From contig NC_005027.1 of assembly GCF_000196115.1 (NCBI RefSeq), forward strand, positions 6,258,001 through 6,322,000: DNA of 64,000 bases, written 5' to 3'. This document shows, one piece after another, positions 2,960 through 32,652 of the stretch (the stretch's first letter is position 1; every line of letters starts with the position of its first letter). Source of the stretch: Rhodopirellula baltica SH 1 (GTDB taxonomy: Bacteria > Planctomycetota > Planctomycetia > Pirellulales > Pirellulaceae). A program made the position numbers and the translations under genes. The notes under the pieces were generated by a model, which saw only the letters and a list, made by a program, of their open reading frames with translations, had not been told where the DNA came from and did no database searches.

Positions 2960-3032
2960 GCCCTTGTAGCTCAGTTGGTAGAGCAACGGACTCTTAATCC
3001 GTGGGTCCTAGGTTCGAGCCCTAGCGGGGGCA
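2960..3032 (+). tRNA. tRNA-Lys (CTT)
   Basis: A 73-nt cloverleaf. The acceptor is GCCCTTG with CGGGGGC (two G-T pairs), the anticodon stem ACGGA/TCCGT encloses loop CTCTTAA (anticodon CTT), and the T arm is CCTAG-GTTCGAG-CCCTAG-like. CCA is not encoded. The integrase gene begins about 120 bases downstream, so this tRNA 3' end is the likely integration target of the island. No second copy of its 3' end was found further right. Confidence 0.95.
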
Positions 3033-3154
3033 TTGAGGCTAAAACGACGTGATTAGCGGACTTTCCGCGACCTGCCGAATGTCGGCAGAGCACGCTTTCA
3101 ACGAACGGCCAAGCGGGAACTTTCCCGTTTGGCTCAACCATGAAAGGTGCTGTC
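3033..3154 (+). other. tRNA/integrase junction with two hairpins (candidate attL arm region)
   Basis: Between tRNA-Lys and the integrase lie two inverted repeats: CTGCCGA-ATG-TCGGCAG (3072-3088) and an 11-bp stem at 3109-3132 ending just before the integrase start. Such hairpins beside an integrase often serve as integrase or excisionase binding arms or translational control. That role is inference. Confidence 0.4.
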
Positions 3155-4327
3155 ATGCCCAAACTCACTCAAGCCTTGCCTCAATACCGCAAGCATTCTA
3201 GCGGCCAAGCTCGTGTAACCATCAATGGACGCGACTATTTGCTCGGCCCGTACGGTACGAAAGCCAGCCGCACGATGTACGACCGCGTCATCGCGGAGTA
3301 TCTCGCGTCTGGACGAAGTTCTTCCTTCGGCGTCCGGGATAGCTCAATCACGCTCGCGATGCTGATGGTTGACTACGCTCGGTTCGCGAAAGCCTATTAC
3401 GGAACCGGCAAGAACTCCGAGTGGCATCGAATCAAGTATGCCATTCGCCCGATCAAGAGCTATTACGCATCCCTTCCGGCTTGTGAGTTTGGCCCCAGTC
3501 ACTTCAAGGTTGTCCGAGAGTCGATGATCAATGATGGGTGGGCAAGGACCAACATCAACGCGAATATGAAGCGGATTGTCCGGATGATGAAATGGGCTGC
3601 CGCCGAGGGGAAACTTCCTGCCAGCGTTTTTGAAACGCTTCGATTGATTCCCGGTCTCAAGAAAGGAAGGACAGAGGCCAGGGAGAGTGAGCCGGTCCAA
3701 CCTGTCGATCCAATCGTGGTGCAGAAAACCCTGCCTCACTTGCCGGACGTTGTCGCTGATATGGTTCGGATCCAGGAACTGGCCGGATGCCGTCCAGGTG
3801 AGGTGTGTAAGCTCACTCCGTCAATGATCGATCGAAGCGGTGAAGTCTGGCTCGCCTCGATCGAAGATCACAAGACGGCTCACCACGGACACCGACGAAG
3901 CTTCCCGCTTGGCCCCAAGGCACAAGCGATTTTGCTGCCCTACCTGGATCGCGGTCCCAACGAGTGTCTGTTTCGTCCGGTGGATACGGACAAACGCCGT
4001 CGTGCCGCTGCGAGCCGGGCCCGCACAACTCCGAAGTCGTGTGGGAACCGCAAAGGAACCAATCGCAAACGGAATCCCAAACGAAAGCCAGGAGTCGCCT
4101 ACACGACCTCTACCTATGGAAAAGCAATCGGTAGGGCGGCGAAGAAAGCAAAGGTCGATCACTGGTCACCGAATCAACTTCGCCACAGTCGAGCGACTGT
4201 CATTCGCAAAGAGTTTGGGCTGGAAGCCGCTCAGGTTGTTCTAGGGCACAAGTCCGCGGATATCACCCAGACGTACGCTGAGCGAGACGCAGCCTTGGCA
4301 TTCGAGGTTGCCCGAAAGATCGGCTGA
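3155..4327 (+). CDS. Tyrosine recombinase / integrase
   Basis: A site-specific recombinase that would integrate and excise the island. The protein (390 residues from ATG 3155) has an N-terminal SAM-like DNA-binding part (about 60-165) and a C-terminal catalytic domain with the expected residues: Arg in AGCRPGEV (about 211), His/Arg in LRHSRAT (about 342-345), His in LGHKS (about 364), and the nucleophile Tyr in QTYAE (about 373). I chose ATG 3155 over the in-frame ATG 3140 because AAAGG lies 7 bases before it and the MPKL start fits planctomycete integrases as I recall them. A basic KRNPKRK stretch is inserted before the second catalytic block. Its position right after tRNA-Lys supports tRNA-targeted integration. 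Confidence 0.93.
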   Translation: MPKLTQALPQYRKHSSGQARVTINGRDYLLGPYGTKASRTMYDRVIAEYLASGRSSSFGVRDSSITLAMLMVDYARFAKAYYGTGKNSEWHRIKYAIRPIKSYYASLPACEFGPSHFKVVRESMINDGWARTNINANMKRIVRMMKWAAAEGKLPASVFETLRLIPGLKKGRTEARESEPVQPVDPIVVQKTLPHLPDVVADMVRIQELAGCRPGEVCKLTPSMIDRSGEVWLASIEDHKTAHHGHRRSFPLGPKAQAILLPYLDRGPNECLFRPVDTDKRRRAAASRARTTPKSCGNRKGTNRKRNPKRKPGVAYTTSTYGKAIGRAAKKAKVDHWSPNQLRHSRATVIRKEFGLEAAQVVLGHKSADITQTYAERDAALAFEVARKIG

Positions 4328-4795
4328 TCTTGTTTCAGCTTGAGGACAACACGAAGGGCTCTTGATCAGAGTCCTTCGTGGGATGGGCTACCTGTAGCTC
4401 TCAACCACTGATGGATGGAATGGGTGAGTCGGACAAGTCTATTGCGAGTGATCAAGCAGTTTGTCTGTCAGAAAATTCTTGCCCCGAGACCGTGACCTGT
4501 CCCCCTGGCGGTTCCAGTGGTCCGGCAATCTGAATTGCAAGAACATTCTCTTTGCTATGTTCGGCTGAACGACGCAATGAAAATGTCGGGACGACGGAGT
4601 CTTGCAGCCGAGCGATCAACACCTGTTAACCACCGGAGTTCGAACCGCAATTGCTATGGAACCTGAACCACAAGAGTCCCAGTCGCAAACGGGAGTTACG
4701 TGACCGACGCTCGTTCTAGCTGCACTCCACCGTGTGAGCGACGAATTGGTGTGGGGGCTTGCTAGGTAGGACCTAAGTTGGATCCACGACGGGAG
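4328..4795. other. Non-coding region between convergent genes
   Basis: This 468-base gap separates the integrase from the GIY-YIG gene transcribed towards it. From 4359 on it belongs to the large direct repeat and recurs at 19184-19620. A 14-base sequence starting ACGGGAGTTA occurs at 4689 and again exactly 100 bases later at 4789. I see no gene or recognisable RNA. Confidence 0.5.
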
Positions 4796-5656: not shown

Positions 5657-5827
5657 TCTGTCCCTCTGGTTGCTGCCGACCTCCAGCATATTGCGGGGGT
5701 CCGAATTTTGATAGGCTGTCGCCCCTTCGGCTCGATCTGGAAACGGCTGCGTCCACGCTGTGGGGATCCGTTACGGTGCGGGACCGTCGAAGAGACAACA
5801 ACAACGAGTTCCGCATGGAGAAGCGAA

Positions 5828-7366
5828 TTGATCACGGGTGAAATCAAGAGCAAGGTCGACAGGCTCTGGGACGCGTTTTGGACGGGCGGGATCTCGAATC
5901 CGCTGGAGGTGATGGAGCAAATCACGTATCTGCTGTTCATCAAACGCCTCGACGATCTGCATACGCTCGAAGAAAACAAAGCCAACCGCACCAAGAAGCC
6001 GATGGAAAATCGGATCTTCCCCGAGGGCAAGGACGAAAAGAAACGCTCCTACGAAGACCTCCGCTGGTCGCGGTTCAAACACTTCGAGCCCAAGGAAATG
6101 TTCGATGTGGTCAACGAGCACGTCTTTCCGTTTCTGCGAACGCTCGGTGGTGACGGATCGACGTACACCAAGCACATGAAAGACGCTCGGTTCACGATCC
6201 CCACACCGGCGCTGCTGGCCCGAGTCGTGGACATGATCGACCAAGTGCCGATGGAGGATCGGGACACCAAGGGCGATCTGTACGAATACATGCTGGGCAA
6301 GATCGCCTCAGCGGGACAGAACGGGCAATTCCGAACGCCGCGTCACATCATCGAATTGATGGTGGAACTGACCGTACCGACGCCGACCGACGTGATCTGC
6401 GATCCGGCTTGCGGAACGGCTGGGTTCTTGGTCGTGGCGGGTGAGTACCTGCGTGAAAAACATCCCGAAGTCCTCCGCGATGCCAAGCTGAAAAAGCACT
6501 TTCATGGCGACATGTTCCACGGCTTCGACTTCGACAGCACGATGCTGCGGATCGGCAGCATGAACATGCTGCTGCACGGCGTGGAGAATCCCGACATCGT
6601 CTACCGCGACTCGTTGGCTCAGGAACACGGTGCGGAGGAAGAACGCTACTCGCTGGTGCTGGCCAATCCTCCGTTCGCTGGCTCGCTGGATTACGAGAGC
6701 TGTGCCAAGGACTTGTTGCAAATCGTCAAGACGAAGAAGACCGAGCTGCTGTTTCTGACGCTGTTCCTGCGGTTGCTCAAGCCCGGTGGCCGCGCGGCGA
6801 TCATCGTCCCCGACGGCGTGTTGTTCGGATCGTCGAAGGCCCACAAGACGCTGCGGAAGATGTTGGTCGAGGATCAGAAGCTGGACGGGATCATCTCGAT
6901 GCCCGGCGGCGTGTTCAAGCCGTATGCGGGCGTCTCGACGGCGATCGTGTTGTTCACCAAGACCAACTCGGGCGGCACCAAGCACGTTTGGTTCTACGAC
7001 ATGCAGGCCGATGGCAAGTCGCTGGACGACAAGCGAACCGAGTTGTTACCACCGGAAAAGCAAGGCCCAGCGCCGACGGCGAAGCTGACGGGGGACGAGC
7101 ACGCCAAGAACAACTTGCCCGACATTTTGCAACGATGGAGCAAGCGGGACAAGTCCGAGCGAAAGAACGAGCGAACGGCGCAGAGCTTTTGCGTGCCGAA
7201 GTCGGACATCGTCGAGCAAGGTTACGACTTGTCGATCAACCGTTACAAGGAAGTCGTCCACGAAGAAGTCGACCATCGCCCCCCGCAAGCGATTCTGGAT
7301 GAGTTGGAAAGCATCGAGACAGAGATCACCCAAGGCATGAAGCAACTGCGGGGGATGCTGAAGTGA
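5828..7366 (+). CDS. hsdM: Type I restriction-modification methyltransferase HsdM (copy A)
   Basis: The N6-adenine methyltransferase subunit, expected to act as M2S1 and with HsdR in the restriction complex. It has 512 residues from TTG 5828, preceded by GGAG at a 7-base spacing; the resulting (M)ITGEIKSKVDRLWDAFW is the standard family start. The frame stays open upstream to 5708 but that part has no family similarity. Visible motifs are the N-terminal HsdM_N helical region (SNPLEVMEQITYLLFIKRLD), GQFRTPRHI (about 164), SAM-binding DPACGTAGF (about 191), and catalytic NPPF (about 279). It overlaps hsdS by 4 bases (GTGA), so the two are translationally coupled. Confidence 0.95.
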   Translation: MITGEIKSKVDRLWDAFWTGGISNPLEVMEQITYLLFIKRLDDLHTLEENKANRTKKPMENRIFPEGKDEKKRSYEDLRWSRFKHFEPKEMFDVVNEHVFPFLRTLGGDGSTYTKHMKDARFTIPTPALLARVVDMIDQVPMEDRDTKGDLYEYMLGKIASAGQNGQFRTPRHIIELMVELTVPTPTDVICDPACGTAGFLVVAGEYLREKHPEVLRDAKLKKHFHGDMFHGFDFDSTMLRIGSMNMLLHGVENPDIVYRDSLAQEHGAEEERYSLVLANPPFAGSLDYESCAKDLLQIVKTKKTELLFLTLFLRLLKPGGRAAIIVPDGVLFGSSKAHKTLRKMLVEDQKLDGIISMPGGVFKPYAGVSTAIVLFTKTNSGGTKHVWFYDMQADGKSLDDKRTELLPPEKQGPAPTAKLTGDEHAKNNLPDILQRWSKRDKSERKNERTAQSFCVPKSDIVEQGYDLSINRYKEVVHEEVDHRPPQAILDELESIETEITQGMKQLRGMLK

Positions 7367-8544
7367 AATCTCATGAAACCCCGGCGGGCTGGTCTTTGAC
7401 AAAGCTCTCCGAAATTTGCGATCCGAATGCACCAATCATGTACGGCATCCTTCAGCCAGGTCCAGTAATCCTGGATGGCGTTCCTTACGTTCGCCCTAGT
7501 GAAATTGATCCTGACCGCATCCGTCTTGAAGACATAAAACGAACGACACCGGAAATTGCAGAACGCTATCGCAGATCGACTCTTCAAACCGAGGACTTGC
7601 TCATCACAATTGTCGGCACGTTGGGACGAATCGCGGTTGTACCGCCCGAGTTGAATGGTGCGAACATAACGCAGTCGTCAGCACGTATCCGACTAAACCG
7701 AAAAACAGCAAATCTCCGATACATTCGACAGTTGCTTCGCTCGCCAATTGCAATAAGGCAGTACGACTTTCACCGACTTGGGACTGGTGTCCCCCGACTA
7801 AACATCCATCATGTGCGTGATTTGCAGATTCCCCTTCCGCCGCTTTCGGAGCAGAAGCGGATCGCGGAGATCTTGGATCGGGCGGAGGCGTTGCGAGCCA
7901 AGCGTCGCGCCGCCCTCGCCCTCCTCGACGAACTCACCCAATCCATCTTCCTCGACATGTTCGGCGATCCGGTGAGTAATCCCAAGGGCTGGCCGGTGGA
8001 GTCGCTTTCAGACCTGGGGAAAATAACAACGGGTGGAACTCCATCGAGCAAAAAGGAAGGCATGTTTGGAGGAACAGTTCCGTTCGTGACTCCGGGCGAC
8101 TTGGAATCAGACGAATTACCCAAGCGAACTTTAAGTGACCACGGCGCAAGCGAGGCCAAGACTGTTCCGGCTGGAGCGACGTTCGTGTGCTGTATTGGCG
8201 CGACCATCGGGAAAATGGGGCAGGCATCTGTGCGAAGCGCTTTTAACCAGCAGCTCAACGCTATCGAATGGTCGAACAGCGTCAATGATGATTTTGGACT
8301 GGGTGTGTTGCGGTTCTTCAAGAAACTGATCGCAACATGGGGTGCATCAACTACGCTTCCAATCCTAAAAAAGTCTTCTTTTGAAAAGATTGAGATTCCT
8401 GTTCCTCCCATCGAGTCTCAAGCGATCTACGCAGACCGCAAATCCGAGATTGAACAATTGAGAAGTCTTCACCGCAATTCGCTTAGCGAGCTAGACCAAC
8501 TCTTCGCCTCCCTCCAACACCGGGCGTTTCGAGGGGAACTATGA
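7363..8544 (+). CDS. hsdS: Type I specificity subunit HsdS (copy A, specificity 1)
   Basis: The DNA-recognition subunit, 393 residues, with GTG start overlapping the hsdM stop. The layout is TRD1 (about 1-150), central conserved helices (about 155-200, from IPLPPLSEQKR to LDELTQSIF), TRD2 (about 205-350, starting near NPKGWPVESL) and a C-terminal conserved segment ending LFASLQHRAFRGEL. Both TRDs differ completely from those of the second hsdS at 22188, whereas the central block is identical at DNA level over 124 bases. The recognition sequence cannot be predicted here. hsdR follows after 22 bases. Confidence 0.93.
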   Translation: MKSHETPAGWSLTKLSEICDPNAPIMYGILQPGPVILDGVPYVRPSEIDPDRIRLEDIKRTTPEIAERYRRSTLQTEDLLITIVGTLGRIAVVPPELNGANITQSSARIRLNRKTANLRYIRQLLRSPIAIRQYDFHRLGTGVPRLNIHHVRDLQIPLPPLSEQKRIAEILDRAEALRAKRRAALALLDELTQSIFLDMFGDPVSNPKGWPVESLSDLGKITTGGTPSSKKEGMFGGTVPFVTPGDLESDELPKRTLSDHGASEAKTVPAGATFVCCIGATIGKMGQASVRSAFNQQLNAIEWSNSVNDDFGLGVLRFFKKLIATWGASTTLPILKKSSFEKIEIPVPPIESQAIYADRKSEIEQLRSLHRNSLSELDQLFASLQHRAFRGEL

Positions 8545-8566
8545 TGACGGAAAACGAGGGCACGCG

Positions 8567-11500
8567 ATGAGCAACTTTGACTTCCTCACCTCCGAATGGA
8601 AGGACATCCACGAAGCGGCCAGCAAAGCCGAGTCGGCGGCGATCCCCGATCCTCGCACCTCCTGCTTCTACGCTCGCCGTACGTTGGAGCTTGCCGCACG
8701 TTGGGCTTACAAGTTCGACCGGGCTTTGAAACTGCCGTACCAAGACAACTTGTCGGCGCTGATTCACGAACCCACGTTCAAGCAGACCGCTGGCGATGCG
8801 GTCTTCAACAAAGCGAAGCTGATCAACAAGCGGGGCAATGATGCGGTTCACAGCCACCGAGACGTTTCCGAAGCGGACGCGGTTTCGACGGTTCAGGAAC
8901 TGTTCCACTTCTGCTACTGGTTCGCCCGACTTTACGCCCGTCGCAATCGGCCTGATCCCGCGCTGACATTCGATCCGGCGATCTTGCCGACGACCGCGAT
9001 CCCGAAACAAACGCTCAACCAACTGAAATTGCTTGAGACCCAACTGAAGGAGAAAGACGAGAAACTCTCCGTCTTGTTGGCCGACAAGGACAAGCTCGAT
9101 GCCGAGATCAAGCTGCTTCGCACGGAAGTGGCCAAGGCGAAAAAGGCTGCCGAGAAGATTCAGGACGATCACGATTACAACGAAGCCGAAACCCGAGATC
9201 GCTGGATCGACGAACTGCTGAAAGAATCCGGCTGGCCGCTGGATCAAAAGCGTGATCTTGAGTTCCCCGTGACGGGGATGCCCAACACCAAGGGCGAAGG
9301 CTTTGTCGATTACGTGCTGTGGGGCGACGATGGCAAGCCGCTGGCGGTGGTCGAGGCCAAACGGACACGACGCGATCCAAGAGCCGGGGAACAGCAAGCA
9401 AAGCTGTATGCCGATTGTCTGGAAGCGATTTATGGACAGCGACCGATCATTTTCTACACCAACGGCTACGAACATTGGATCTGGGACGATGCGATGTACG
9501 CGCCGCGCCGGGTTCAGGGGTTCTACAAGAAAGCGGAGTTGGAACTGCTGATCCTCAGGCGAAGTAGTCGCCGCGATTTGGCTTCGGCGACGATCGACGA
9601 CACGATTGTGGAACGCTATTACCAAACCCGCGCGATCCGACGAATCGGCGAGTCGTTTGAAAAAGACAACGAACGGAAGTCGCTGCTGGTGATGGCAACG
9701 GGCAGCGGAAAGACCCGAACCGTGATCGCTCTGTGCGATTTGCTGATCCGATGCAATTGGGCGAAGCGTGTCCTGTTTCTGGCCGACCGCGTGGCGCTGG
9801 TCAATCAGGCGACCAATGCGTTCAAGGCATTCTTGCCGGATTCGTCACCGGTGAATCTGGTGACGGAAAAGGATTCCGAGGGACGGGTCTACCTTTCGAC
9901 TTACCCGACCATGATGGGCTTGATCGACGAAGCAAAAGACGGGCAACGTCGCTTTGGTGTTGGGCATTTCGATCTCGTTGTGATCGATGAAGCCCACCGG
10001 AGTGTGTACCAGAAGTACGGAGCGATCTTCGACTACTTCGATTCGCTGCTGGTTGGACTGACCGCCACCCCGAAAGACGAGATCGACAAGAACACGTACG
10101 GCTTGTTCGATCTGGAAACCGGCGTGCCTACCGATGCATACGATCTGGACGAAGCGGTCGCGGACAAGTTTCTAGTTCCTCCGAAAGCGGTGTCGGTGCC
10201 GCTGAAGTTTGAACGCGAGGGGATCAAGTACGACGATTTATCCGAAGAGGACAAGGACGAGTGGGATGCCAAGGAGTGGGACGAAGACGTTGTAAGGAAG
10301 GGAGAAGTCGATTCGTCAGCGGTCAACAAGTGGCTGTTCAACGAGGACACTGTCGACAAGGTGCTGGAACACTTGATGACGCGCGGCCAGTACGTCGCGG
10401 GCGGTGATTTGCTGGGGAAGACGATCATCTTCGCCAAGAATCAGGGTCACGCCGATTTCATCAAAGAGCGTTTCGACATCAACTACCCGCACTACAAGGG
10501 CGAGTTTGCCCGGATCATCACGTTCAAGACCGAGTACGCCCAAACGGTGATCGACAGTTTTTCCAACAAGGACAAGCTGCCTCAGATCGCGATCTCCGTC
10601 GACATGCTAGACACCGGCATCGACGTGCCCGAGGTGCTGAACCTCGTATTCTTCAAGTTGGTCCGATCCAAGACAAAGTTCTGGCAGATGGTCGGTCGGG
10701 GAACACGGCTGTGTCCCGATCTGTTTGGTCCGGGACAGGACAAAGAGTTCTTCTACATCTTTGATTACTGCCAGAATCTCGAATACTTCAGCCAGAATCC
10801 GGCTGGTTCGGCTGGTTCAACTGCGGAATCCCTGTCGACACGTTTGTTCAAGCGACGGTTGGAGTTGATCCGTTTTCTGGACGGAAAAGAGTTACCTGCA
10901 ACCGCCGAAGCGATCAGTGAAGCGGATGCCGGATACGAAGCCGATCCAACTTCAGAGACTCAGGTGCGGGCATTGGCGGCACGATTCCTGCATCGGCAGG
11001 TCGCATCGATGAACCTCGAAAACTTCCTCGTTCGCGCCCATCGCCGCTCGGTTGAAAAGTTCGCCAAGAAGGAAGCTTGGGAACAGCTCAAAGAAGCCGA
11101 GATCCAGGAGCTTGCCGACGAGGTCGCCCCGCTTCCCACACAGATGGAGCGAGAATCGGAAGAGGCGAAGCGTTTTGATCTGTTGTTGCTGAACCTGCAG
11201 CTGTCGCTTCTCAATAAAGAGCCTGCCTACGAACGGCTTCGTCAGCAAGTCGTCGCCATCGCCGGACTGCTGGAAGAGAAGCACACCATTCCCATGGTGA
11301 ATCAGCAAATGATCCACATCGAGGCAATCCAAACGGAGGAGTGGTGGGCGGATGTCACCCTTCCAATGCTGGAAGTCATTCGTCGTCGATTGCGTGATTT
11401 GGTGCAGTTCATCGAGAAGGCAAAACGCAAGCCGGTGTACACCAACTTTGACGACATGCTTGGGGACGAGGTCGAGGTCGGCCTGGATGAGTTTGTTGGC

Positions 11501-11997: not shown

Positions 11998-13044
11998 ATG
12001 CAAATTATCTACATTCACCCTGGCATCGAAAAATATGTTCGCGATTTGGGGTATTCCGAGGATGCGGTAGCGAAAACGATTGCTGAACCGAGTTCGCAGG
12101 AGTCAGTGGATTTTACGCAGGTTCCTGACCGATACCGGAGGCAACAAGGAGAAGTTTGTAGCCTCCGATACTTCGGAAGCGAGGTTGTTTGCGTGACCTA
12201 CAACATTGTTGGCGGAGCTTACGAGATTTGCGATTTCTTTTGTCTGCCGCGTAAGGATTTGCCAGATGGTGATATCCCCTGCAGTCTCGCTCGCACGGTT
12301 TTCTACGAAAGGTTTGCCCCCTCGATTCTTGAATGGATTCCAGTTCCAGATTTGCCAAGGGTTTTGGGGCGTGCGAGAGGAAAAGCCCTGGAATATCTTT
12401 TGGAATTCCGCGCTGCGAAATCGAAGGATGTGCTGAAACTTCCTGTCATCAAGGCGATCAAGGCTCCGCATTTAGAACCAAGAAGCCAACGCGAGAAGAA
12501 ACGAGGGTATGCAGACATTCTTGAAGGATACTGCGATGAGTTCCGAGACCTCATCGAGAAGTCTCCGAAGGAGGAGACGATTCATCAATGGCTAGCCAAC
12601 CCTCAGCACATGATCTTCTTCGGGACTGATGCTGAGATGGTCTGGAGCAAAATCAAATTTGGAACGTCGTTCGTATCTGACTTCATCGTCAAGAGGGATG
12701 AGCTTCCGTACCTGATGATTGAGATCGAGGATACGTCGAAGTTGTTCAATAATGACGGGAAACGCAGCAAGAGATACAAAGACGCTATTGATCAGGTCCA
12801 GGACTGGATGGGGTGGCTGGCAAGGGGAAATATCAACACCTTCAAAGACGAAAACCCTGAGATGGAGCTCTTCACCTCGCCACACGGGCTCGTTGTGATG
12901 GGGCGGCAGTCGAACAGCAACTCCAAGAAGGATGTGCGAGATCGATGGGAGCAAGACAAATCCAAAGCCAATCCTCAAGTGCTCAATTACGACGAAGTGA
13001 TTTCACGCGTTCGAAAGTTCGCTTCGCGACTTCGGAAAAGCTAG
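11998..13044 (+). CDS. Shedu-like antiphage protein (DUF4263)
   Basis: A 348-residue protein. The C-terminal half matches DUF4263, the nuclease-like domain that defines Shedu (SduA) defence: IHQWLANPQHMIFFG (about 195-210), KFGTSFVSDFIV (Asp near 226) and LMIEIED (Glu near 240), followed by a helical segment with QVQDWMGWL. The spaced Asp and ExE-type residues fit a PD-(D/E)xK-like active site. The N-terminal about 160 residues are a variable region that I cannot assign; in Shedu proteins this part differs between subtypes. It begins 17 bases after hsdR on the same strand, so it probably belongs to the same transcript. The Shedu assignment is by family pattern; activity is inferred. Confidence 0.78.
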   Translation: MQIIYIHPGIEKYVRDLGYSEDAVAKTIAEPSSQESVDFTQVPDRYRRQQGEVCSLRYFGSEVVCVTYNIVGGAYEICDFFCLPRKDLPDGDIPCSLARTVFYERFAPSILEWIPVPDLPRVLGRARGKALEYLLEFRAAKSKDVLKLPVIKAIKAPHLEPRSQREKKRGYADILEGYCDEFRDLIEKSPKEETIHQWLANPQHMIFFGTDAEMVWSKIKFGTSFVSDFIVKRDELPYLMIEIEDTSKLFNNDGKRSKRYKDAIDQVQDWMGWLARGNINTFKDENPEMELFTSPHGLVVMGRQSNSNSKKDVRDRWEQDKSKANPQVLNYDEVISRVRKFASRLRKS

Positions 13045-15178: not shown

Positions 15179-15809
15179 TTCGTATGCGAGTGCCCACCCG
15201 CCTCAATCTCGGAATCATTCGGGGGGAGGAAGATGGCGGCTTGGCGTGCCGAGGAAACGGCCAGCCTTAACAGATGCTCCTGCGGCGAATTCCGAATCGA
15301 AAATTGTTGCGGGATAAGGGGATTCAACCCGTTTCATCCGAAAAATGGTTGCATGTCGCGTCAGTTGTTGCCGTGATTGCCCGCTCCAATTAACTGGGGT
15401 CTGTTCGTTTCGGCGACTTCCCTGGATGCCATTGAGCGACCCTGATTCGCATCGGGTCACGAGCAAGTTGATGAATTAGACAAATGGAGAACGCATCGGT
15501 CTCCGTTACGAAAAACGGTGTCTGCGGTTGCTGGCAACAGCCCTGTCTGACTGTGGAATTCCAAGCCGTGGGGCGTCAAGCAAACTCTGCTTGTGGTGAT
15601 CGATCGCTCTGGTTGATGCCACAAAAAATTCGAGAACCCACACCGTGATCAACGTTGCACGGGGCTGAACGGGGCTTCGAATTCATCGGTGGACTTGCGT
15701 TCCAAAAAAGGTTGTTGCTTCGGAGTTGCGCTACGCGAGAAATTGCCGTTTTCGACGATCACTCATGATCGATCGTGACTCAATTTTACTCGTTTTAGGA
15801 GTTTGTGCC

Positions 15810-16040
15810 GTGAAGAAGCACAACCCAACAAACATGGATCGTCTTCTCAAAATCATGCTTTCTGAGAAGGAAGTCGCGCAAAAGCTGAATGTCAGCCAGA
15901 GCACGGTGAAGCGACTTTGCAAAAAGTTCGGCTTTCCCACGCCCGTCTGGGTTGGTTCGCAAAAGCGTTGGCTTGAGGAGATGGTGGATCAGTGGATCGC
16001 TAAGCAGGCGGCGCTTCAAAATCGCAAGCTCGGAGCTTAG
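15810..16040 (+). CDS. Small helix-turn-helix protein (excisionase / HTH_17-like)
   Basis: A 76-residue protein from GTG 15810, chosen because AGGAG lies 8 bases upstream; an in-frame upstream ATG at 15765 has no such site. The core SEKEVAQKLNVSQSTVKRLCKK is a MerR/excisionase-type winged HTH, followed by a wing-like WVGSQKRWLEEMVDQWI. Such proteins act as excisionases or as repressors in mobile elements. It heads a compact operon with the DUF1580 and ParB-like genes and is a candidate binder of the three palindromes upstream (inference). Confidence 0.8.
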   Translation: MKKHNPTNMDRLLKIMLSEKEVAQKLNVSQSTVKRLCKKFGFPTPVWVGSQKRWLEEMVDQWIAKQAALQNRKLGA

Positions 16041-16042
16041 TA

Positions 16043-16366
16043 GTGGTTGCAGCCAACCAGTCTATGAAAGGCATCAGCCGGGGCAAGCAACTCTTGCCTC
16101 TGGTTGATGCCGTCTATCAGGAAACTGGGCGTCGCCCAGCTCTCTCGACTGTTCTCCGGTGGTCGCAGAAGCCCAACCGTCATGGATGTAGGCTTCAAAC
16201 TTGGAGGGTTGGCGGACGTCGGCTCACCACCGTCGAAGCAGTCCGTGATTACATCGACGCAACGACTGCTGCAGCAGACCCAGGTTTGCTGCCGGTTGCG
16301 ACGAACCAGCAAATGACGAGTGCACACAAACGTGCGATGGAACAACTTGAAAAGGAGGGGATCTAG
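16043..16366 (+). CDS. DUF1580 family protein
   Basis: A 107-residue protein. GTG 16043 is preceded by GGAG at 7 bases and lies 2 bases after the HTH gene. The sequence has GRRPALSTVLRW, then RLQTWRVGGRRLTTVEAVRDYI, a DNA-binding-like pattern typical of DUF1580, a family I know mainly from planctomycetes. The pattern (substrate helix, GGRR wing, TT-x-EAV helix) resembles small winged-HTH/AlpA-like proteins. Function is unknown. Its place between an excisionase-like and a ParB-like gene suggests control of island maintenance. Confidence 0.75.
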   Translation: MVAANQSMKGISRGKQLLPLVDAVYQETGRRPALSTVLRWSQKPNRHGCRLQTWRVGGRRLTTVEAVRDYIDATTAAADPGLLPVATNQQMTSAHKRAMEQLEKEGI

Positions 16367-17235
16367 TGAATACGGTGGACACATGGAATGAGGGGGAATC
16401 CCAAACCTTCGAATCCTGCGTTATTGAGCAGCTCGGGGAAGGGGACGGTGATGGCCAAACTCTTGAGTGCCGTCTCGTGTCGATCGACAAAGTCGAATTT
16501 GACGACACGATTCAGTGTCGTACTGGGATTGTCGAATCTGCAGTTGATGACTACGCAGAAGTTTGGAAGGCCAATCGTAAAGAGGCACGATATGTCTTCC
16601 AGTCGCCGATCGTCCTGTTTTTTGATGGCGAGCATTACTGGATTGGTGACGGCTGGCACCGATTGATTGCAGCACGCCGAGTTGGACGTGCGGAAGTCTT
16701 CAGCCAAGTGCATCGCGGTGGACGCAATGAAGCGATGAAATATGCCCTGTCCGCGAATGCTGAGAACGGCTTGCGACGGACGAATGACGACAAGCGGAAG
16801 GCTGTTCGGATTGCTCTCAAGGAATTTCCCGATTATTCCGCGAGGCAAATCGCCAAGATGGTCAAGGTTAGCAACACGTTTGTCAGCAAAACCTTGAAAT
16901 CAACCACCGCTCTGTCACCAACAGAAACGACCGAACACGCAGCAGCGGTTGAGGGTGTCAACGTTTACACCCCTCCTTTGGCGGGCGGGGCCGTGTCGCC
17001 CCAACTCGATAGCGTTTCGCCGACTACTCAAACGATCGCTCCCCCGTCACGAGAACCAGTGGTTCTTCAGAAGAAGGCCGATTCGTTGATTCAAAAGCAC
17101 GTTGGCGCCCTCACGCGTGGAGTCACTGATTTGACCCGATTGCTCGGTGGTGAGGGAGAGAACTCGTATGAAGCGAACAAAGCTTTGGACACACTTCTTG
17201 AGACGTTGAAGGCGATGGGAAGGGGAGTGCGTTAG
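16366..17235 (+). CDS. ParB/Spo0J-like DNA-binding protein
   Basis: A 289-residue protein. GTG 16366 overlaps the DUF1580 stop by one base and has AGGAGG just upstream, so translation is coupled. The ParB N-terminal (sulfiredoxin-like) fold is suggested by the YWIGDGWHRLIAARRVGRAEV box (about 89-108, split by GDGWHR as in ParB GERR-type motifs) and ALSANAENGLRRTNDDKRKAV. A HTH (SARQIAKMVKVSNTFVSKTL) follows at about 153-175, then a Pro/Thr-rich linker and a C-terminal helix. No ParA is encoded nearby, so a regulatory or copy-control role is as likely as partitioning. Confidence 0.78.
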   Translation: MNTVDTWNEGESQTFESCVIEQLGEGDGDGQTLECRLVSIDKVEFDDTIQCRTGIVESAVDDYAEVWKANRKEARYVFQSPIVLFFDGEHYWIGDGWHRLIAARRVGRAEVFSQVHRGGRNEAMKYALSANAENGLRRTNDDKRKAVRIALKEFPDYSARQIAKMVKVSNTFVSKTLKSTTALSPTETTEHAAAVEGVNVYTPPLAGGAVSPQLDSVSPTTQTIAPPSREPVVLQKKADSLIQKHVGALTRGVTDLTRLLGGEGENSYEANKALDTLLETLKAMGRGVR

Positions 17236-17422: not shown

Positions 17423-17470
17423 AAAACCGCCTGCCCTCAGTCGCCAAACCTAGGCAAGCGGTTTTGTTTC
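17423..17470 (+). terminator. Terminator of the HTH-DUF1580-ParB-like operon
   Basis: Arms AAAACCGCCTGCC (17423-17435) and GGCAAGCGGTTTT (17453-17465) pair with one mismatch and end in a T-rich tract. It sits between the small ORF (stop 17414) and the polymerase-like gene (17480). Confidence 0.75.
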
Positions 17471-17479: not shown

Positions 17480-18829
17480 GTGATTCTACCGTCTGCCAAT
17501 CAATTTGTCTCTGCCGAGAATCTTCTCTCGGTAAGTCGCACTTCAAGCAGGCCAAAGACGCTTGTTTTGCCTGAGTCGTTGCGTCCGGAAGCCTATCTGC
17601 CTCCTTCGTTGCAACATCGGCAGGATGACGCTCGTTATTTCATTCACCTGATTCTTAGCAAGCTGGCAGTCGGGGACGTCGATTCAAACGGTTGGGTTTT
17701 GCTCTGCGGCGAATACCTGAAACGCGTGATGTGTTGTCATGACTACGCAGCTGTCATTCGGTCTCTGATTAATGCTGGTGTTGTTCGTCGGCAAGCCTAT
17801 CGAAATGGAGTTCGCTGCTTCGGGTACAAGCTGCACGAAAGCTTCCTGTACGACAGGCACACCCGAGTAGCCGTGAAAGACGCTCGTCTAATCCGCGCAT
17901 TGGAACGGGGTCGTGAGGAGCACAGGCAGCAACAGGATGCAAGAAGGCGACCTGTCCACGATCACCTCGAAACTCTGCAATACAGCCTAAAGATCGATTG
18001 GGAGTACGCACAAGCGATCTTGAAGACGCTGCCAGACATCAATCGCTTCGATAGCCAGGGGATTCTCGTCAGAGACCTCCATGAACGACGCTTCCGTTTT
18101 TCCATCGGGAACTACGGACGAGTTTCGAACAGCATTACGAACTTGAGCAGACACCTTCGATCAGCGTTACGGCACAGAGGACAGGAGCTACGACAAGTAG
18201 ACATCAAGAACGCACAACCGGCACTTCTCGGGCAGGAGGTCCACCGAAGAGAGCAAGAGCACATAGCACCAGGCCAGCAGGGAACAGGAAGGCAGCACAA
18301 CCAACCCAAAGAGCAATCCAATTATGATTCTCAAAATTCCGGTTCAAGTGCTCTCTTCCCGGCCAAGCAGTCGATCAAATTGGACGTGCCGCGATATATC
18401 GAACTCGCTCAACAAGGGAAACTGTACGAATTCTTGCAGACGCAATTGCCACACATGAACAGGGAGCGAATCAAAAGACGGTTCCTGAGTGATGTCTTGG
18501 CCAAGCGTCAGACAGCTAGCGGTCATGAATACCCGAGCGAGGTTGAAGACTGTTTCAAGCGGGCTTTCCCCACGGTCTACTCGCACATCCGCGATATCAA
18601 CGACCACGGCAGGCAGCACGCCAATCTGATTCGCATCCTTCAGCGAGCGGAGTCTGACTTGGTCATCGGGCAAGTGTCTGAACTGCTGCGCGTGGATCAT
18701 CCACGTACATTTTTCATCACGCTGCATGATGCCATCTACACGACCGATTCAAATCTGACTTTGATCGAGGATAGTTTCCAAGCCGTTTTCGATCAGAACG
18801 GCTATTCGATGTCGTTAAAGGTTGGCTGA
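17480..18829 (+). CDS. Putative replication protein with family-A polymerase-like motifs
   Basis: A 449-residue protein that I do not recognise as a named family. An N-terminal winged-helix-like part (about 45-117) ends YRNGVRCFGYKL. The rest shows, in polymerase order, a motif A-like DIKNAQPALLG (Asp 241), a basic segment RERIKRRFLSDVLAKR (about 328-343, like the O-helix motif B), QRAESDLVIG (388-397) and a motif C-like LHDAIY (His 416, Asp 417). A low-complexity Gln/Ser-rich insert (about 256-292) splits A from B. These are the signatures of the PolA/T7-type single-subunit polymerase palm. No exonuclease or primase domain is visible. GTG 17480 has only a weak ribosome site, so the start is uncertain. 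Assignment to replication is inference. Confidence 0.6.
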   Translation: MILPSANQFVSAENLLSVSRTSSRPKTLVLPESLRPEAYLPPSLQHRQDDARYFIHLILSKLAVGDVDSNGWVLLCGEYLKRVMCCHDYAAVIRSLINAGVVRRQAYRNGVRCFGYKLHESFLYDRHTRVAVKDARLIRALERGREEHRQQQDARRRPVHDHLETLQYSLKIDWEYAQAILKTLPDINRFDSQGILVRDLHERRFRFSIGNYGRVSNSITNLSRHLRSALRHRGQELRQVDIKNAQPALLGQEVHRREQEHIAPGQQGTGRQHNQPKEQSNYDSQNSGSSALFPAKQSIKLDVPRYIELAQQGKLYEFLQTQLPHMNRERIKRRFLSDVLAKRQTASGHEYPSEVEDCFKRAFPTVYSHIRDINDHGRQHANLIRILQRAESDLVIGQVSELLRVDHPRTFFITLHDAIYTTDSNLTLIEDSFQAVFDQNGYSMSLKVG

Positions 18830-19183: not shown

Positions 19184-19620
19184 CTCTTGATCAGAGTCCT
19201 TCGTGGGATGGGCTACCTGTAGCTCTCAACCACTGATGGATGGAATGGGTGAGTCGGACAAGTCTATTGCGAGTGATCAAGCAGTTTGTCTGTCAGAAAA
19301 TTCTTGCCCCGAGACCGTGACCTGTCCCCCTGGCGGTTCCAGTGGTCCGGCAATCTGAATTGCAAGAACATTCTCTTTGCTATGTTCGGCTGAACGACGC
19401 AATGAAAATGTCGGGACGACGGAGTCTTGCAGCCGAGCGATCAACACCTGTTAACCACCGGAGTTCGAACCGCAATTGCTATGGAACCTGAACCACAAGA
19501 GTCCCAGTCGCAAACGGGAGTTACGTGACCGACGCTCGTTCTAGCTGCACTCCACCGTGTGAGCGACGAATTGGTGTGGGGGCTTGCTAGGTAGGACCTA
19601 AGTTGGATCCACGACGGGAG

Positions 19621-20481
19621 TTAAGTGTCATCGATCTCGTTGGTTTCTCGGTGGATCTCGCTCAGCGTCGCACCGGATAAGTCCTTCCATTCCGTCCACC
19701 CGTTCGCGCTAGCACCGAGCACGACTGAGCTGGGAGAAGGGAAAAGGTAGTCCTGAAGGTAGAAGTAGTTTCCGTGACGCTCTTCAAGGATTCCCGACTC
19801 GATCATCTTCTGACGTTGTGAATGGACTGAATCCGGCGCCGACGCCGTGAACTCGGTTCGTGATCGGCTTCCCTGACGGACAACGAATCCATCCTCTACC
19901 AATTCGCCGGTCGCATCGCATCCTCGTGAGCGGATGAAGAATCGAGACGTTGGGCCAGCTGTCTTCGAGACTGGTTCGAACACCGGGTACCCGAGAGTCG
20001 AGACAAGGGTGCTGATGGTTTCGAACACGTCGAGCAATTCGGCTTCCATCGGCTCAGGGACGTAGATTGACGTCTCCGGTACCTGCCCATTGTCCAGTGA
20101 GAAACGATTCACCTCCTTGGCCTTCTGCATGCAATGCCATTCCAAATAGCGTATGTGAGCCTGCGTGAAGTTCTGCGTTTTCGACACGCAAAAGACCGCT
20201 GTCTTCCAGAATGTTTTCGTCTTGTTGTGGCTGTCAAATCGCTTTCGGGCATCCTCAGTCTGCCCAACGTAGACAATTGGTTTTGCGCCCTCCTCGTCTT
20301 CACCGAAAAGGAAATAGACTCTCGGTAAAGTGAGTTCTTGCCGCGACTTCCCCTGGGCGAGATCGCTACGAGGAATCAGCACGGCCTGCACGATTCGGGT
20401 GGTGATTTCGGCGATCCGGATTCCACGTGGTTCACCGGTGGGCAAGTAGATCTGAATCGTTTTCGCGGTCGGTGATGTCAT
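19621..20481 (-). CDS. GIY-YIG nuclease family protein with DUF4357 (copy B)
   Basis: It encodes the same 286-residue protein as 4796-5656, with GIY-YIG core residues in VYFLFGEDEEG and IVYVGQTEDARKRF and the DUF4357 tail. The protein sequences are identical, so this copy is recent or kept identical by gene conversion. It is divergent from hsdM copy B. It is likely functional to the same extent as copy A. Confidence 0.8.
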   Translation of the reverse strand: MTSPTAKTIQIYLPTGEPRGIRIAEITTRIVQAVLIPRSDLAQGKSRQELTLPRVYFLFGEDEEGAKPIVYVGQTEDARKRFDSHNKTKTFWKTAVFCVSKTQNFTQAHIRYLEWHCMQKAKEVNRFSLDNGQVPETSIYVPEPMEAELLDVFETISTLVSTLGYPVFEPVSKTAGPTSRFFIRSRGCDATGELVEDGFVVRQGSRSRTEFTASAPDSVHSQRQKMIESGILEERHGNYFYLQDYLFPSPSSVVLGASANGWTEWKDLSGATLSEIHRETNEIDDT

Positions 20482-20652
20482 TCTGTCCCTCTGGTTGCTG
20501 CCGACCTCCAGCATATTGCGGGGGTCCGAATTTTGATAGGCTGTCGCCCCTTCGGCTCGATCTGGAAACGGCTGCGTCCACGCTGTGGGGATCCGTTACG
20601 GTGCGGGACCGTCGAAGAGACAACAACAACGAGTTCCGCATGGAGAAGCGAA

Positions 20653-22191
20653 TTGATCACGGGTGAAATCAAGAGCAAGGTCGACAGGCTCTGGGACGCG
20701 TTTTGGACGGGCGGGATCTCGAATCCGCTGGAGGTGATGGAGCAAATCACGTATCTGCTGTTCATCAAACGCCTCGACGATCTGCATACGCTCGAAGAAA
20801 ACAAAGCCGACCGCACCAAGAAGCCGATGGAAAATCGGATCTTCCCCGAGGGCAAGGACGAAAAGAAACGCTCCTACGAAGACCTCCGCTGGTCGCGGTT
20901 CAAACACTTCGAGCCCAAGGAAATGTTCGATGTGGTCAACGAGCACGTCTTTCCGTTTCTGCGAACGCTCGGTGGTGACGGATCGACGTACACCAAGCAC
21001 ATGAAAGACGCTCGGTTCACGATCCCCACACCGGCGCTGCTGGCCCGAGTCGTGGACATGATCGACCAAGTGCCGATGGAGGATCGGGACACCAAGGGCG
21101 ATCTGTACGAATACATGCTCGGCAAGATCGCCTCAGCGGGCCAGAACGGCCAATTCCGAACGCCGCGTCACATCATCGAATTAATGGTGGAACTGACCGC
21201 ACCGACGCCGACGGACGTGATCTGCGATCCGGCTTGCGGAACGGCTGGGTTCTTGGTCGTGGCGGGTGAGTACCTGCGTGAAAAACATCCCGAAGTCCTC
21301 CGCGATGCCAAGCTGAAAAAGCACTTCCATGGCGACATGTTCCACGGATTTGACTTCGACAGCACGATGCTGCGGATCGGCAGCATGAACATGCTGCTGC
21401 ACGGCGTGGAGAATCCCGACATCGTCTACCGCGACTCGTTGGCTCAGGAACACGGTGCGGAGGAAGAACGCTACTCGCTGGTGCTGGCCAATCCTCCGTT
21501 CGCTGGCTCGCTGGATTACGAAAGCTGTGCCAAGGACTTATTGCAAGTCGTCAAGACGAAGAAGACCGAGCTGCTGTTTTTGACGCTGTTCCTGCGGTTG
21601 CTCAAGCCCGGTGGCCGCGCGGCGATCATCGTCCCCGACGGCGTGTTGTTCGGTTCGTCGAAGGCCCACAAGACGCTGCGGAAGATGTTGGTCGAGGATC
21701 AGAAGCTGGACGGGATCATTTCGATGCCCGGCGGCGTGTTCAAGCCGTATGCGGGCGTCTCGACGGCGATCGTGTTGTTCACCAAGACCAACTCGGGCGG
21801 CACCGAGCACGTTTGGTTCTACGACATGCAGGCCGATGGCAAGTCGCTGGACGACAAGCGAACCGAATTGTTACCACCGGAGAAGCAAGGCCCAGCGCCG
21901 ACGGCGAAGCTGACGGGGGACGAGCACGCCAAGAACAACTTGCCCGACATTTTGCAGCGATGGAGCAAGCGGGACAAGTCTGAGCGAAAGAACGAGCGGA
22001 CAGCGCAGAGCTTTTGCGTGCCGAAGTCGGACATCGTCGAGCAAGGTTACGACTTGTCGATCAACCGTTACAAGGAAGTCGTCCACGAAGAAGTCGACCA
22101 TCGCCCACCGCAAGCGATTCTGGATGAGTTGGAAAGCATCGAGAAAGAGATCACCCAAGGCATGAAGCAACTGCGGGGGATGCTGAAGTGA
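20653..22191 (+). CDS. hsdM: Type I methyltransferase HsdM (copy B)
   Basis: A 512-residue methyltransferase from TTG 20653, with GGAG 7 bases upstream as in copy A. All key motifs are intact: GQFRTPRHI, DPACGTAGF and NPPF. I count five amino-acid differences from copy A: Asn to Asp in KANRTKK, Val to Ala in TVPTP, Ile to Val in LLQIVKT, Lys to Glu in GGTKHVW and Thr to Lys in IETEIT. None falls in a catalytic motif. It overlaps the second hsdS by 4 bases. It should be an active methyltransferase with specificity 2. Confidence 0.95.
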   Translation: MITGEIKSKVDRLWDAFWTGGISNPLEVMEQITYLLFIKRLDDLHTLEENKADRTKKPMENRIFPEGKDEKKRSYEDLRWSRFKHFEPKEMFDVVNEHVFPFLRTLGGDGSTYTKHMKDARFTIPTPALLARVVDMIDQVPMEDRDTKGDLYEYMLGKIASAGQNGQFRTPRHIIELMVELTAPTPTDVICDPACGTAGFLVVAGEYLREKHPEVLRDAKLKKHFHGDMFHGFDFDSTMLRIGSMNMLLHGVENPDIVYRDSLAQEHGAEEERYSLVLANPPFAGSLDYESCAKDLLQVVKTKKTELLFLTLFLRLLKPGGRAAIIVPDGVLFGSSKAHKTLRKMLVEDQKLDGIISMPGGVFKPYAGVSTAIVLFTKTNSGGTEHVWFYDMQADGKSLDDKRTELLPPEKQGPAPTAKLTGDEHAKNNLPDILQRWSKRDKSERKNERTAQSFCVPKSDIVEQGYDLSINRYKEVVHEEVDHRPPQAILDELESIEKEITQGMKQLRGMLK

Positions 22192-23357
22192 CAAGTCACG
22201 AGGTAGCTCTCTCCGAAATCTGCGACACCGGTAGTGGTGGAACTCCGTCGCGAGCGAAGCAAGAAATCTATTACGATGGTTCGATCCCATGGGTTAAATC
22301 TGGCGAGCTTCGCGAATCAGTGATTACCGAAACCGGAGAATCCATAACCGAACTTGGGCTTAAAGAGTCATCTGCCAAGCTTCTGCCAGCTGACACACTC
22401 TTGGTCGCGTTATACGGCGCGACCGTTGGCAGAGTCGGCATGCTCGGCATTGAAGCAGCAACCAATCAAGCTGTCTGCTACTTGATTCCAGATGATACGA
22501 GAGTCGAGCGTCGGTATCTCTACCACGCCTTACGGTCAAAAGTTCCGTACTGGTTGACTCAGCGAGTCGGTGGAGGGCAACCTAACATCAGTCAGGGCGT
22601 GATCAAGAACACGAAGATTCCCCTTCCGCCGCTTTCGGAGCAGAAGCGGATCGCGGAGATCTTGGATCGGGCGGAGGCGTTGCGAGCCAAGCGTCGCGCC
22701 GCCCTCGCCCTCCTCGACGAACTCACCCAATCCATCTTGGCGAGACTTCTGGATGGCAGCGCAGATTTAGGCACGACTACTCTCGGAAACATCAGCCGTG
22801 ACATGCATCAGGGAATCAACACGGTTACCGAGAAAATTGAATACCAAAATGACGGGTTTCCAATTATTCAGTCCAAACACACAACTCAAGGCTACCTTGA
22901 CCTGTCTGACGCAAGATTCGTCAGCAAGGCGACGTACCTGAAGTACAAAGAAAAGTATCGACCAGCGCGAAACGATTTGCTGCTTTGCAACATCGGAACA
23001 ATTGGAAAAAGCTTACTCATGGAACAAGAGAACGACTTCTTGATTGCATGGAACTTGTTTCTTATCAAGCTCGATCTCGATCAGGTCTCACCCTCGTTTT
23101 GCAAACACTACTTTGATCGTCTCGCTAGTCAGCATTACTTTGATCGCTTCCTAACCGGCGGGACAGTGAAGTTCATTAGCAAGAAGACACTGAACGCTAC
23201 TCCAATTCCGCTGCCTTCGATGGACAGGCAGCGTGAGTTTGAGGAGCAGATCGCTAGTGTCGAAGTATTGAAAGAAAAACATCGTTCGGCAGTTGCCGAA
23301 TTAGATCAACTCTTCGCCTCCCTCCAACACCGGGCGTTTCGAGGGGAACTTTCATGA
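22188..23357 (+). CDS. hsdS: Type I specificity subunit HsdS (copy B, specificity 2)
   Basis: A 389-residue recognition subunit with GTG start overlapping hsdM. TRD1 (about 1-140: TPSRAKQEIYYDGSIPWVKS) and TRD2 (about 190-360: QGINTVTEKIEYQNDGFPII) show no similarity to those of the 7363 gene, yet the central block (IPLPPLSEQKR to LDELTQSI) and the end (LFASLQHRAFRGELS) are the same. It therefore directs methylation of a different bipartite target. The matching hsdR is truncated, so restriction at this site would need HsdR made from 8567. Confidence 0.93.
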   Translation: MTSHEVALSEICDTGSGGTPSRAKQEIYYDGSIPWVKSGELRESVITETGESITELGLKESSAKLLPADTLLVALYGATVGRVGMLGIEAATNQAVCYLIPDDTRVERRYLYHALRSKVPYWLTQRVGGGQPNISQGVIKNTKIPLPPLSEQKRIAEILDRAEALRAKRRAALALLDELTQSILARLLDGSADLGTTTLGNISRDMHQGINTVTEKIEYQNDGFPIIQSKHTTQGYLDLSDARFVSKATYLKYKEKYRPARNDLLLCNIGTIGKSLLMEQENDFLIAWNLFLIKLDLDQVSPSFCKHYFDRLASQHYFDRFLTGGTVKFISKKTLNATPIPLPSMDRQREFEEQIASVEVLKEKHRSAVAELDQLFASLQHRAFRGELS

Positions 23358-23376
23358 CGGAAACCGAGGGCACGCG

Positions 23377-23626
23377 ATGAGCAACTTTGACTTCCTCACC
23401 TCCGAATGGAAGGACATCCACGAAGCGGCCAGCAAAGCCGAGTCGGCGGCGATCCCCGATCCTCGCACGTCCTGCTTCTACGCTCGCCGTACGTTGGAGT
23501 TGGCGGCACGGTGGGCTTACAAGTTCGACCGGGCGTTGAAACTGCCGTACCAAGACAACTTGTCGGCGCTGATTCACGAACCCACGTTCAAGCACACCGC
23601 TGGCGATGCCGTCTTCAACAAAGCGA
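23377..23626 (+). pseudogene. hsdR: hsdR remnant, truncated after about 83 codons
   Basis: It starts exactly like the intact hsdR (SNFDFLTSEWKDIHEA...) and keeps the DUF4145-like N-terminus, then diverges at 23626/23627 after AAAGCGA. Nuclease, helicase and C-terminal domains are all missing. The frame continues by chance to 23721 through unrelated DNA that is the antisense of a broken chromosomal gene. It is not expected to be functional. The breakpoint is the right edge of the island as preserved here. Confidence 0.92.
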
Positions 23627-25401: not shown

Positions 25402-25468
25402 ATAGGCTCACGATGAGTGGCATCGGCTTCCTGCCTGTGATGGCGCGGAACAAAGGTTGGAAGCCTAT

Positions 25469-25584
25469 CAGCCTGTTGATTTAGTCGTATACCGAGTGAC
25501 AACAATTAGCCGATGGGCGTTAGCCCCGGTTGGCGTCTGACTAACCGCCGCTAACGCGGTACGGCTCATTAAATCAACAGCCCG
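25469..25584 (+). repeat. 116-bp inverted-repeat element, copy 1
   Basis: It begins CAGCCTGTTGATTTA and ends TTAAATCAACAGCCCG. The whole 116 bp appears identical to the copy at 32454-32569. Internal GCGTTAGC/GCTAACGC arms form a second inverted repeat. It is a non-coding, MITE- or REP-like element. Confidence 0.9.
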
Positions 25585-25603
25585 CTGTGCCGCACCCTCT
25601 GTT

Positions 25604-27929: not shown

Positions 27930-28101
27930 GATGGAGGCGTTTGTCGAGGAAGTGGCTGCAATGAAAGCGGGCCAAGGGTAAACCCTGGATGGCGTGGCGT
28001 GCAAACACTCTTCAACGAGATTTCATGAAAGGTCAAAAGCGGTCGTCGGGTGTGTGAGCCGCTTGGCGTTAGCCACGGTTTTCAAACGCAACCGGGGCTA
28101 A

Positions 28102-28217
28102 CAGGCTGTTGATTTATTGAGCCGCACCGCGTTAGCGGCGGTTGATTAGACGCCAACCGGGGCTAATGCCCAACGGCTAATGATTGTCATTCGGTATGTG
28201 ACTAAATCAACAGCCTG
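28102..28217 (-). repeat. 116-bp inverted-repeat element, copy 2 (inverted)
   Basis: Terminal arms CAGGCTGTTGATTTA and TAAATCAACAGCCTG. Read on the minus strand it closely matches copy 4 (38930-39045), with only a few differences. A partial extra unit (GCGTTAGCC...CCGGGGCTAACAG) precedes it at about 28063-28103. Confidence 0.9.
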
Positions 28218-28298
28218 CTAACGCCCAAACGGCTCATATGGTTGTGCCCGATCATTCCAGCCGACCTGCATAGACGGCAGAGGTTCTGCCATGATGCT

Positions 28299-32338: not shown

Positions 32339-32453
32339 GGTTCTCGTCCGCAGTCAGGTTTGTGACGTTTTTTACTAAGCAGGTCGGCAGGAGTTTTTCG
32401 GCATTTGAACTGTTTTGGCAAACGCCACTGTTCCCGCGGGCAACCGGGACTAA

Positions 32454-32569: not shown

Positions 32570-32652
32570 CTAACGCCCAAACGGCTCACATGGTTTTGCC
32601 CGATCATTGCTGCCGACGTGTTTAGGTCCGCTTCGTTTCTCTTTCGTGATTC

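Follow-up and report, generated by a model that had tools for sequence, protein, structure and literature searches.

The gene at positions 17480..18829 (+ strand) of the window analysed here, a stretch of 64,000 nucleotides from Rhodopirellula baltica SH 1 (contig NC_005027.1, positions 6,258,001 to 6,322,000), codes for a 449-aa protein that almost certainly has the fold of a family-A polymerase. Its conserved residues and structure model indicate that it is probably an active nucleotide polymerase. It is interpreted, with moderate confidence, as a miniature family-A polymerase (referred to below as the mini-polymerase) that is catalytically competent, belongs to a mobile element and acts as an accessory in copying, restart or repair; the case for a role in replicating or repairing the element itself is evenly poised. 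The gene starts with GTG in a frame open from 17381, with alternative TTG starts at 17567 and 17579. The open reading frame (ORF) is intact and present as a single copy in the 7.15-Mb genome, which also encodes a full PolA. An earlier note on this DNA, made from the sequence, had described 449 residues without an exonuclease or primase domain; the ORF has this length, and family searches found no exonuclease or primase family. The protein matched no Pfam family at E ≤10 and no NCBIfam model, while PHROGs and PDB sequences gave matches only at E >0.1. A terminator-like hairpin followed by T's was seen by eye at about 17424-17470, ∼10 bases 5′ of the GTG; this position raises the possibility of a separate promoter for the gene, or of a start deeper in the frame.

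The residues expected of a polymerase active site were strictly conserved. D241, K332, H416 and D417 were invariant in 57 of 57 non-redundant family members, and in 93 of 93 rows after planctomycete members were added; R214, Y316 and E391 were also present in all 93. The conservation of D241, H416 and D417 among homologues, which the earlier note had left to be checked, was thus confirmed. The 57 rows correspond to 91 loci minus near-copies at 80% identity (L001 and L088 are the window itself), and 36 of the 93 rows came from whole-genome profile searches; L214, L220 and L229 yielded no frame of 360 aa and are absent from the set, and L191 duplicates L006. Viral rows had been selected by degenerate patterns on YGR or DIxN(S/A)QP, and L006 and L007 by patterns on YGR or QxxES, so conservation at these stretches is partly built in. 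K332, H416 and D417 were part of no selection pattern.

Five blocks follow the order found in DNA polymerase I, namely (D)xxGR, A, B, LQxxES and C. The three strings quoted in the earlier note are present (VDIKNAQPALLG with D241, RIKRRFLSDVLAKR with K332, and LHDAIY with H416 and D417), and the assignment made there of motifs in A-B-C order to a family-A-like palm is supported by the conserved motifs and the predicted fold; the (D)xxGR block (residues 210-214) and the LQxxES block (residues 387-392) extend that list. The first, GNYGR in the window protein (18107..18121, + strand, as are all segments of the gene), shows G in 90, R in 93 and D in 68 of the 93 rows, the window protein having G210 at the D position. 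Motif A (residues 239-250, QVDIKNAQPALL; 18194..18229) has the consensus D-I-x-N-S-Q-P, with Q246 in 92 of 93 rows, and is separated from motif B by a low-confidence insertion at residues 260-300 (18257..18379; blocks of 43-62 in predicted local distance difference test, pLDDT). Motif B, or O-helix (residues 328-342, RERIKRRFLSDVLAK; 18461..18505), has the consensus (R/K)-x3-K-x3-Y-x3-F-G. The LQRAES block (18638..18655) contains E391, and motif C (residues 414-419, TLHDAI; 18719..18736) has the consensus T-x-H-D-S-I. The window protein departs from these consensus sequences at A341-K342 for F-G, A418 for S and G210 for D. Its O-helix is one residue longer and ends in A-K, as does that of the Planctomyces relative L006; A341 occurs in 10 and K342 in 12 of 41 planctomycete rows. 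Median spacings in the family were 28 residues from GR to A, 55 from A to B and 79 from B to C; the corresponding distances in Escherichia coli Pol I are roughly 37, 53 and 124. Three departures shared by the family may bear on its chemistry: a Gln five residues after the motif-A Asp (56 of 57 members), a Phe at the O-helix Tyr position, equivalent to T7 Tyr639 (53 of 57), and Ser or Ala in motif C where HDE has its last acid. In DNA polymerase I, a Glu five residues after the motif-A Asp excludes ribonucleotides.

The structure model of the window protein (pLDDT 85.8; predicted template modelling score, pTM, 0.83) shows the palm and fingers topology of family A. Foldseek searches against solved structures gave DNA polymerases throughout the 50 matches listed in each search, and the structure check proposed in the earlier note therefore returned a right-hand family-A polymerase fold. 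In BFVD, one similar phage model was already labelled ‘Putative DNA polymerase I’. Residues 27-118 (17558..17833) form an N-terminal domain with winged-helix-like topology in the model (helix 42-63, strand 73-76, helices 77-84 and 89-98, wing strands 102-104 and 113-118). The winged-helix N-terminus put forward in the earlier note agrees with this order of strands and helices, although no Pfam or PDB sequence family confirmed it. Weak, scattered Pfam matches of the N-terminus (a winged-helix domain at E 0.0027 in one of 24 members) were rejected as evidence. About 90 residues separate this domain from DxxGR, which, judged from length and secondary structure, bears on the thumb. One phage member, L010 (1-1731), whose frame is cut by the contig end, has ∼130 extra N-terminal residues; its residues 1-233 matched no PHROG family.

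The closest known relative is divPolA2, described in PMC11348598 as having a family-A palm, no thumb homologous to others and an unknown N-terminal domain, and as occurring beside a regular polymerase; that text proposes perhaps a repair role and perhaps an RNA polymerase, RNA polymerases being among its structural matches. In hhalign profile comparisons, with divPolA2 represented by 10 phage proteins including AUR84708 (the example of PMC11348598), the palms of the two groups matched with a probability of 98.5 (E 3.2e-15, 194 columns), while eight unrelated neighbour clusters used as controls gave 0.6 or less. This identifies the mini-polymerase family and divPolA2 as related groups of thumb-poor family-A polymerases. 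The divPolA2 rows share R-x3-K (10 of 10), the R of GR (9 of 10), HDS (6 of 10) and (D/E)S (6 of 10). According to PMC11348598, they are also mostly about 430 aa long, with no exonuclease and with an N-terminal globular domain in the thumb's place. They partner a main polymerase, as do the mini-polymerases in all 16 phage records tested. Compared as sequence profiles, the N-terminal domains matched with a probability of only 1.3. The carriers differ as well: divPolA2 occurs in phages of Vibrio, Rheinheimera and Aeromonas plus a few others (266 of 50,697 records), the mini-polymerase family in uncultured huge phages (6 of 50,697), planctomycete genomes and one plasmid. A tblastn search with two mini-polymerase members reached no divPolA2 record.

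Other polymerases are more distant. DNA polymerase I, its Klenow fragment and T7 DNA polymerase share the fold, the DxxGR-A-B-C order, the Asp pair, the O-helix Lys and the His-Asp of motif C. In comparison with DNA polymerase I, the mini-polymerase lacks the exonuclease and, judging from length, a standard thumb, has shorter GR-to-A and B-to-C spacings, Gln for the steric-gate Glu and HDS for HDE, and gives no significant sequence match. PF00476 matched neither the window protein (E ≤10) nor four phage members (E ≤1); the mini-polymerase appears to work like a family-A polymerase yet lies outside this curated family. T7-type single-subunit RNA polymerases, of the distant palm superfamily and likewise with HDS, are about twice as long, and seven such sequences gave hhalign probabilities of 0.1-0.3 with the mini-polymerase family and 2.3-3.5 with divPolA2. 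The latter reached 38.2 against phage PolA-like genes and 1.3 against canonical PolA. According to PMC11348598, divPolA1 also has a truncated thumb, a family-A palm and a second polymerase alongside, and is set apart by an inactivated exonuclease domain. PolA1, PolA2 (APEX) and PolA3, as presented in the accessible text of PMC12926913, are family A too, none being short with an N-terminal winged helix; that survey's method, as described there, discarded sequences without a clear polymerase domain. In a search of open-licence papers, no description of a polymerase of this type came up for planctomycetes or for integrative elements. The word ‘undescribed’ in the earlier note applies only in part, because the palm is homologous to divPolA2 and the BFVD model had already been named.

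The distribution of the family is patchy. Single-sequence pattern scans of genome and viral contigs found no relative, and a single-sequence search of 294 genomes of the phylum returned the window's own copy and nothing else. The first relatives were found by tblastn in the 50,697 phage records (five matches, all in uncultured phages of 595-735 kb), and aligning four of these phage members with the window protein opened up the family. In IMG/VR, 105 of 169 candidate stretches encoded relatives, of which the best 80 were kept (16 of these on contigs of at least 200 kb); among GTDB contigs it was two of 53, one of them a Planctomyces metagenome-assembled genome (45% identity). With the 50-row alignment A2, matches turned up in 41 of 397 class genomes and in 28 of 241 genomes of the taxonomic family, while a draw from the whole phylum gave four genomes with a match out of 392, all of the same class and including the window's own. 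Among 72,556 plasmids, one matched, p_unnamed4 of Hymenobacter qilianensis, with a 524-aa member that has the catalytic residues; searches with P0001 and one planctomycete member matched no plasmid. This Bacteroidota plasmid (L232, NZ_CP060788.1) carries the member at 2824-4398, annotated as hypothetical protein WP_187734701.1, and also has ParA. Most of the 49 rows compared were 16-28% identical to the window protein. The 93-row tree (midpoint root, several long branches) needs four changes between phage and planctomycete labels, three of them forced by well-supported branches, which suggests that the gene passed between phages and planctomycetes more than once. Alternative genetic codes in the phages were considered and rejected, since the standard code already gives open polymerase frames.

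Sixteen phage records, taken from the longer ones among 84 phage loci, were tested for other replicases. PolB matches, often partial stretches, were found in 13 and Pol III alpha in the other three, which also match PF00476 at the gene beside the mini-polymerase. The mini-polymerase is therefore an extra enzyme in phages. In L002 (7143-8429) and its kin (L008, L009, L012 and L013), a PolA-like gene of 425-435 aa (DNA_pol_A, E 1.2e-19 in L002) lies one to two genes downstream of it, placing two family-A polymerases together. The commonest neighbour, in a large phage clade, is a ∼440-aa gene without a family (L053 1849-3174 and kin), which lies in the vicinity of the polymerase at 34 of 56 loci and directly upstream in 23 of those; two representatives had no PHROG and one no Pfam family, giving no functional clue.

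Among the planctomycete loci, a tyrosine recombinase was present in 25 of 43 (L220 and L229 included), a count that is not independent because the model was built from 23 of these recombinases. The window stretch in this count covered 34 kb, its recombinase being 13 kb from the polymerase. Of the 16 loci that extend for about 9 kb or more to either side, 11 had a recombinase, against ∼0.054 expected per 20 kb; the expectation derives from 465 PF00589 matches in 23 genomes (about 172 Mb), with a different model and even placement assumed. All eight recombinases run against Pfam were PF00589. Genes resembling topoisomerase VI overlap the polymerase start by 4-11 bases in three loci: fused B-A-like genes in L197 (4457-7207) and L221 (6564-9107, NCBIfam scores under curated cut-offs) and a split pair in L006 (7912-9981), the second half of which matches the TOP6A toprim model. 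Topoisomerase VIII has a fused form. PMC11302465 cites it as occurring in both free and integrated plasmids. DUF1580-like genes, recognized only by eye, stand ahead of the polymerase in L212, L221 and L222, and a ParB-type cluster different from that of the window occurs at -1 or -2 in L193 (ParB_N E 2e-4, below cut-off), L196, L229 and L230.

The homology, the conserved active site and the predicted fold have computed support. On this basis, and with residue roles that we take over from DNA polymerase I, D241 and D417 would hold two metal ions, K332 and R328 of the O-helix the incoming nucleotide, and R214 the growing end. We infer that the winged-helix-like domain stands in for the thumb, probably keeping the enzyme attached to DNA, and that the enzyme acts on DNA. 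Such an accessory polymerase would extend DNA primers during copying, restart or repair of element DNA, while phage or host would supply the main replicase alongside it. The replication protein suggested in the earlier note, a role drawn from gene company, agrees with the recombinase, ParB-type and DUF1580-like neighbours; the mini-polymerase is not the sole replicator in phages or plasmid.

Several observations weigh against this interpretation. The family gave an hhalign probability of 1.3 (palm alone 2.1) against canonical PolA, the profile of which comprised 11 of 25 sequences, those over 800 aa, and a weak match, 37.5 (palm alone 59.0), to a phage PolA-like gene. Foldseek TM-scores by query length were 0.23-0.39 among the matches listed, and just six of 486 matches reached E ≤0.001. 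In the window protein, neither the O-helix F-G nor the DxxGR Asp is kept, and the last acid of the Pol I HDE is replaced by S or A in 86 of 93 rows, E being present in two. Three phage pairs gave dN/dS ratios (nonsynonymous to synonymous substitution rates) of about 0.08-0.16, while seven planctomycete pairs (41-60% identity) gave 0.12, 0.37, 0.59, 0.59 and three undefined values, the four pairs with a value being 42-53% identical; the claim of purifying selection rests on the phage pairs because the planctomycete pairs are too divergent. The other replicase families in 16 of 16 phage records rule out the mini-polymerase as sole polymerase there, and on the Hymenobacter plasmid replication initiation has a protein of its own; in neither setting, then, does the mini-polymerase stand as the sole replication protein. 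Finally, no recombinase was seen in the fetched stretch of 18 of the 43 planctomycete loci, several of them short contigs.

Of the alternatives, a cargo polymerase for DNA repair, lesion bypass or end joining, unrelated to element replication, is rather unlikely. The missing proofreading domain, the replicase or initiator already present in phages and plasmid, and gene neighbourhoods that differ among loci would all suit it, as would the repair role also proposed for divPolA2 (PMC11348598), but the recurring recombinase, ParB-type, DUF1580-like and topoisomerase VI-like neighbours fit a replication or maintenance module better. Slightly less probable, and still unlikely, is a role as DNA-dependent RNA polymerase or as primer maker, like the T7-type RNA polymerases or a primase, in which the winged helix would serve to start transcription or lay RNA primers on element DNA. 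Most members have HDS in motif C, the form found in T7 RNA polymerase, rather than HDE, Gln occupies the steric-gate position, and the phage records already match a DNA replicase family; yet Phe at the Tyr639 position relaxes the ribonucleotide preference of T7 RNA polymerase, the mini-polymerase is half as long as that enzyme (883 aa), and T7-type enzymes reached hhalign probabilities of only 0.1-0.3 with the family. The solved structures listed were all DNA polymerases, which is absence of RNA polymerases from a list and not their exclusion. The RNA polymerase option itself is raised by the authors of divPolA2 (PMC11348598). It is doubtful that the gene is a replication module moving between giant phages and integrative elements, in which one chain would combine DNA recognition with polymerase, bind an origin and synthesise from there, with a topoisomerase VI-like operon partner in some. 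A relic palm in a protein that is solely a DNA-binding regulator through its N-terminal domain is very improbable, since all 93 rows retain the catalytic residues at such low identities, even if the window protein has lost the F-G and D noted above.

Read as an accessory family-A polymerase, the protein would be a candidate enzyme for replication or repair of planctomycete mobile islands, and polymerases of the divPolA2 kind would be known not just from phages but also from bacterial elements and a plasmid. The family occurs in about one in ten of the class genomes examined and in more than 100 phage stretches, unmatched by the family models tested. Being very small, it may serve as a test case for the purpose of the thumb and the steric gate, and the DNA-or-RNA question raised for divPolA2 is directly testable on it.

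In the window, the polymerase gene likely sits in an integrative element, as the earlier note had supposed. A tRNA-Lys(ctt) gene (2960..3032, + strand), the presumed left end of the island, is followed after about 110 bp by a tyrosine recombinase gene (3140..4327, +; PF00589, E 1.5e-12), which supports that claim. A search for the right end located none, nor a second attachment site, the 29-base 3′ end of tRNA-Lys being unique in the genome within three mismatches. After the recombinase come a DUF4357 gene (weak GIY-YIG match), type I restriction-modification genes, Shedu SduA, SEC-C, HTH_17, DUF1580, the ParB-like gene and the polymerase. The Shedu defence protein (11998-13044; SduA_C, E 2.1e-13) adjoins the type I restriction-modification operon; the island thus carries predicted defence cargo. 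Upstream of the polymerase lie an HTH_17 or excisionase-like gene (15726..16040, +; E 3e-8), the DUF1580 gene (16043..16366, +; PF07618, E 4.1e-34) and the ParB-like gene (16366..17235, +), recognized by eye, for which no Pfam family scored better than E 0.015.

A direct repeat of 3,008 bp, 99.2% identical between its copies (4359-7366 and 19184-22191), flanks the polymerase; the 14.8-kb spacing suggests tandem duplication or integration by recombination. The repeat carries the DUF4357 gene and hsdM, and a second repeat (96%) covers the end of hsdS and the start of hsdR (8492-8816 and 23302-23626). Elsewhere in the window, self-BLAST revealed a tandem array at 42026-43515, with a period of about 207 bp and copies about 90% identical, and an interspersed repeat of 110-130 nt was present in both orientations at 25465-25586, 28088-28220, 32450-32571 and 38926-39047.
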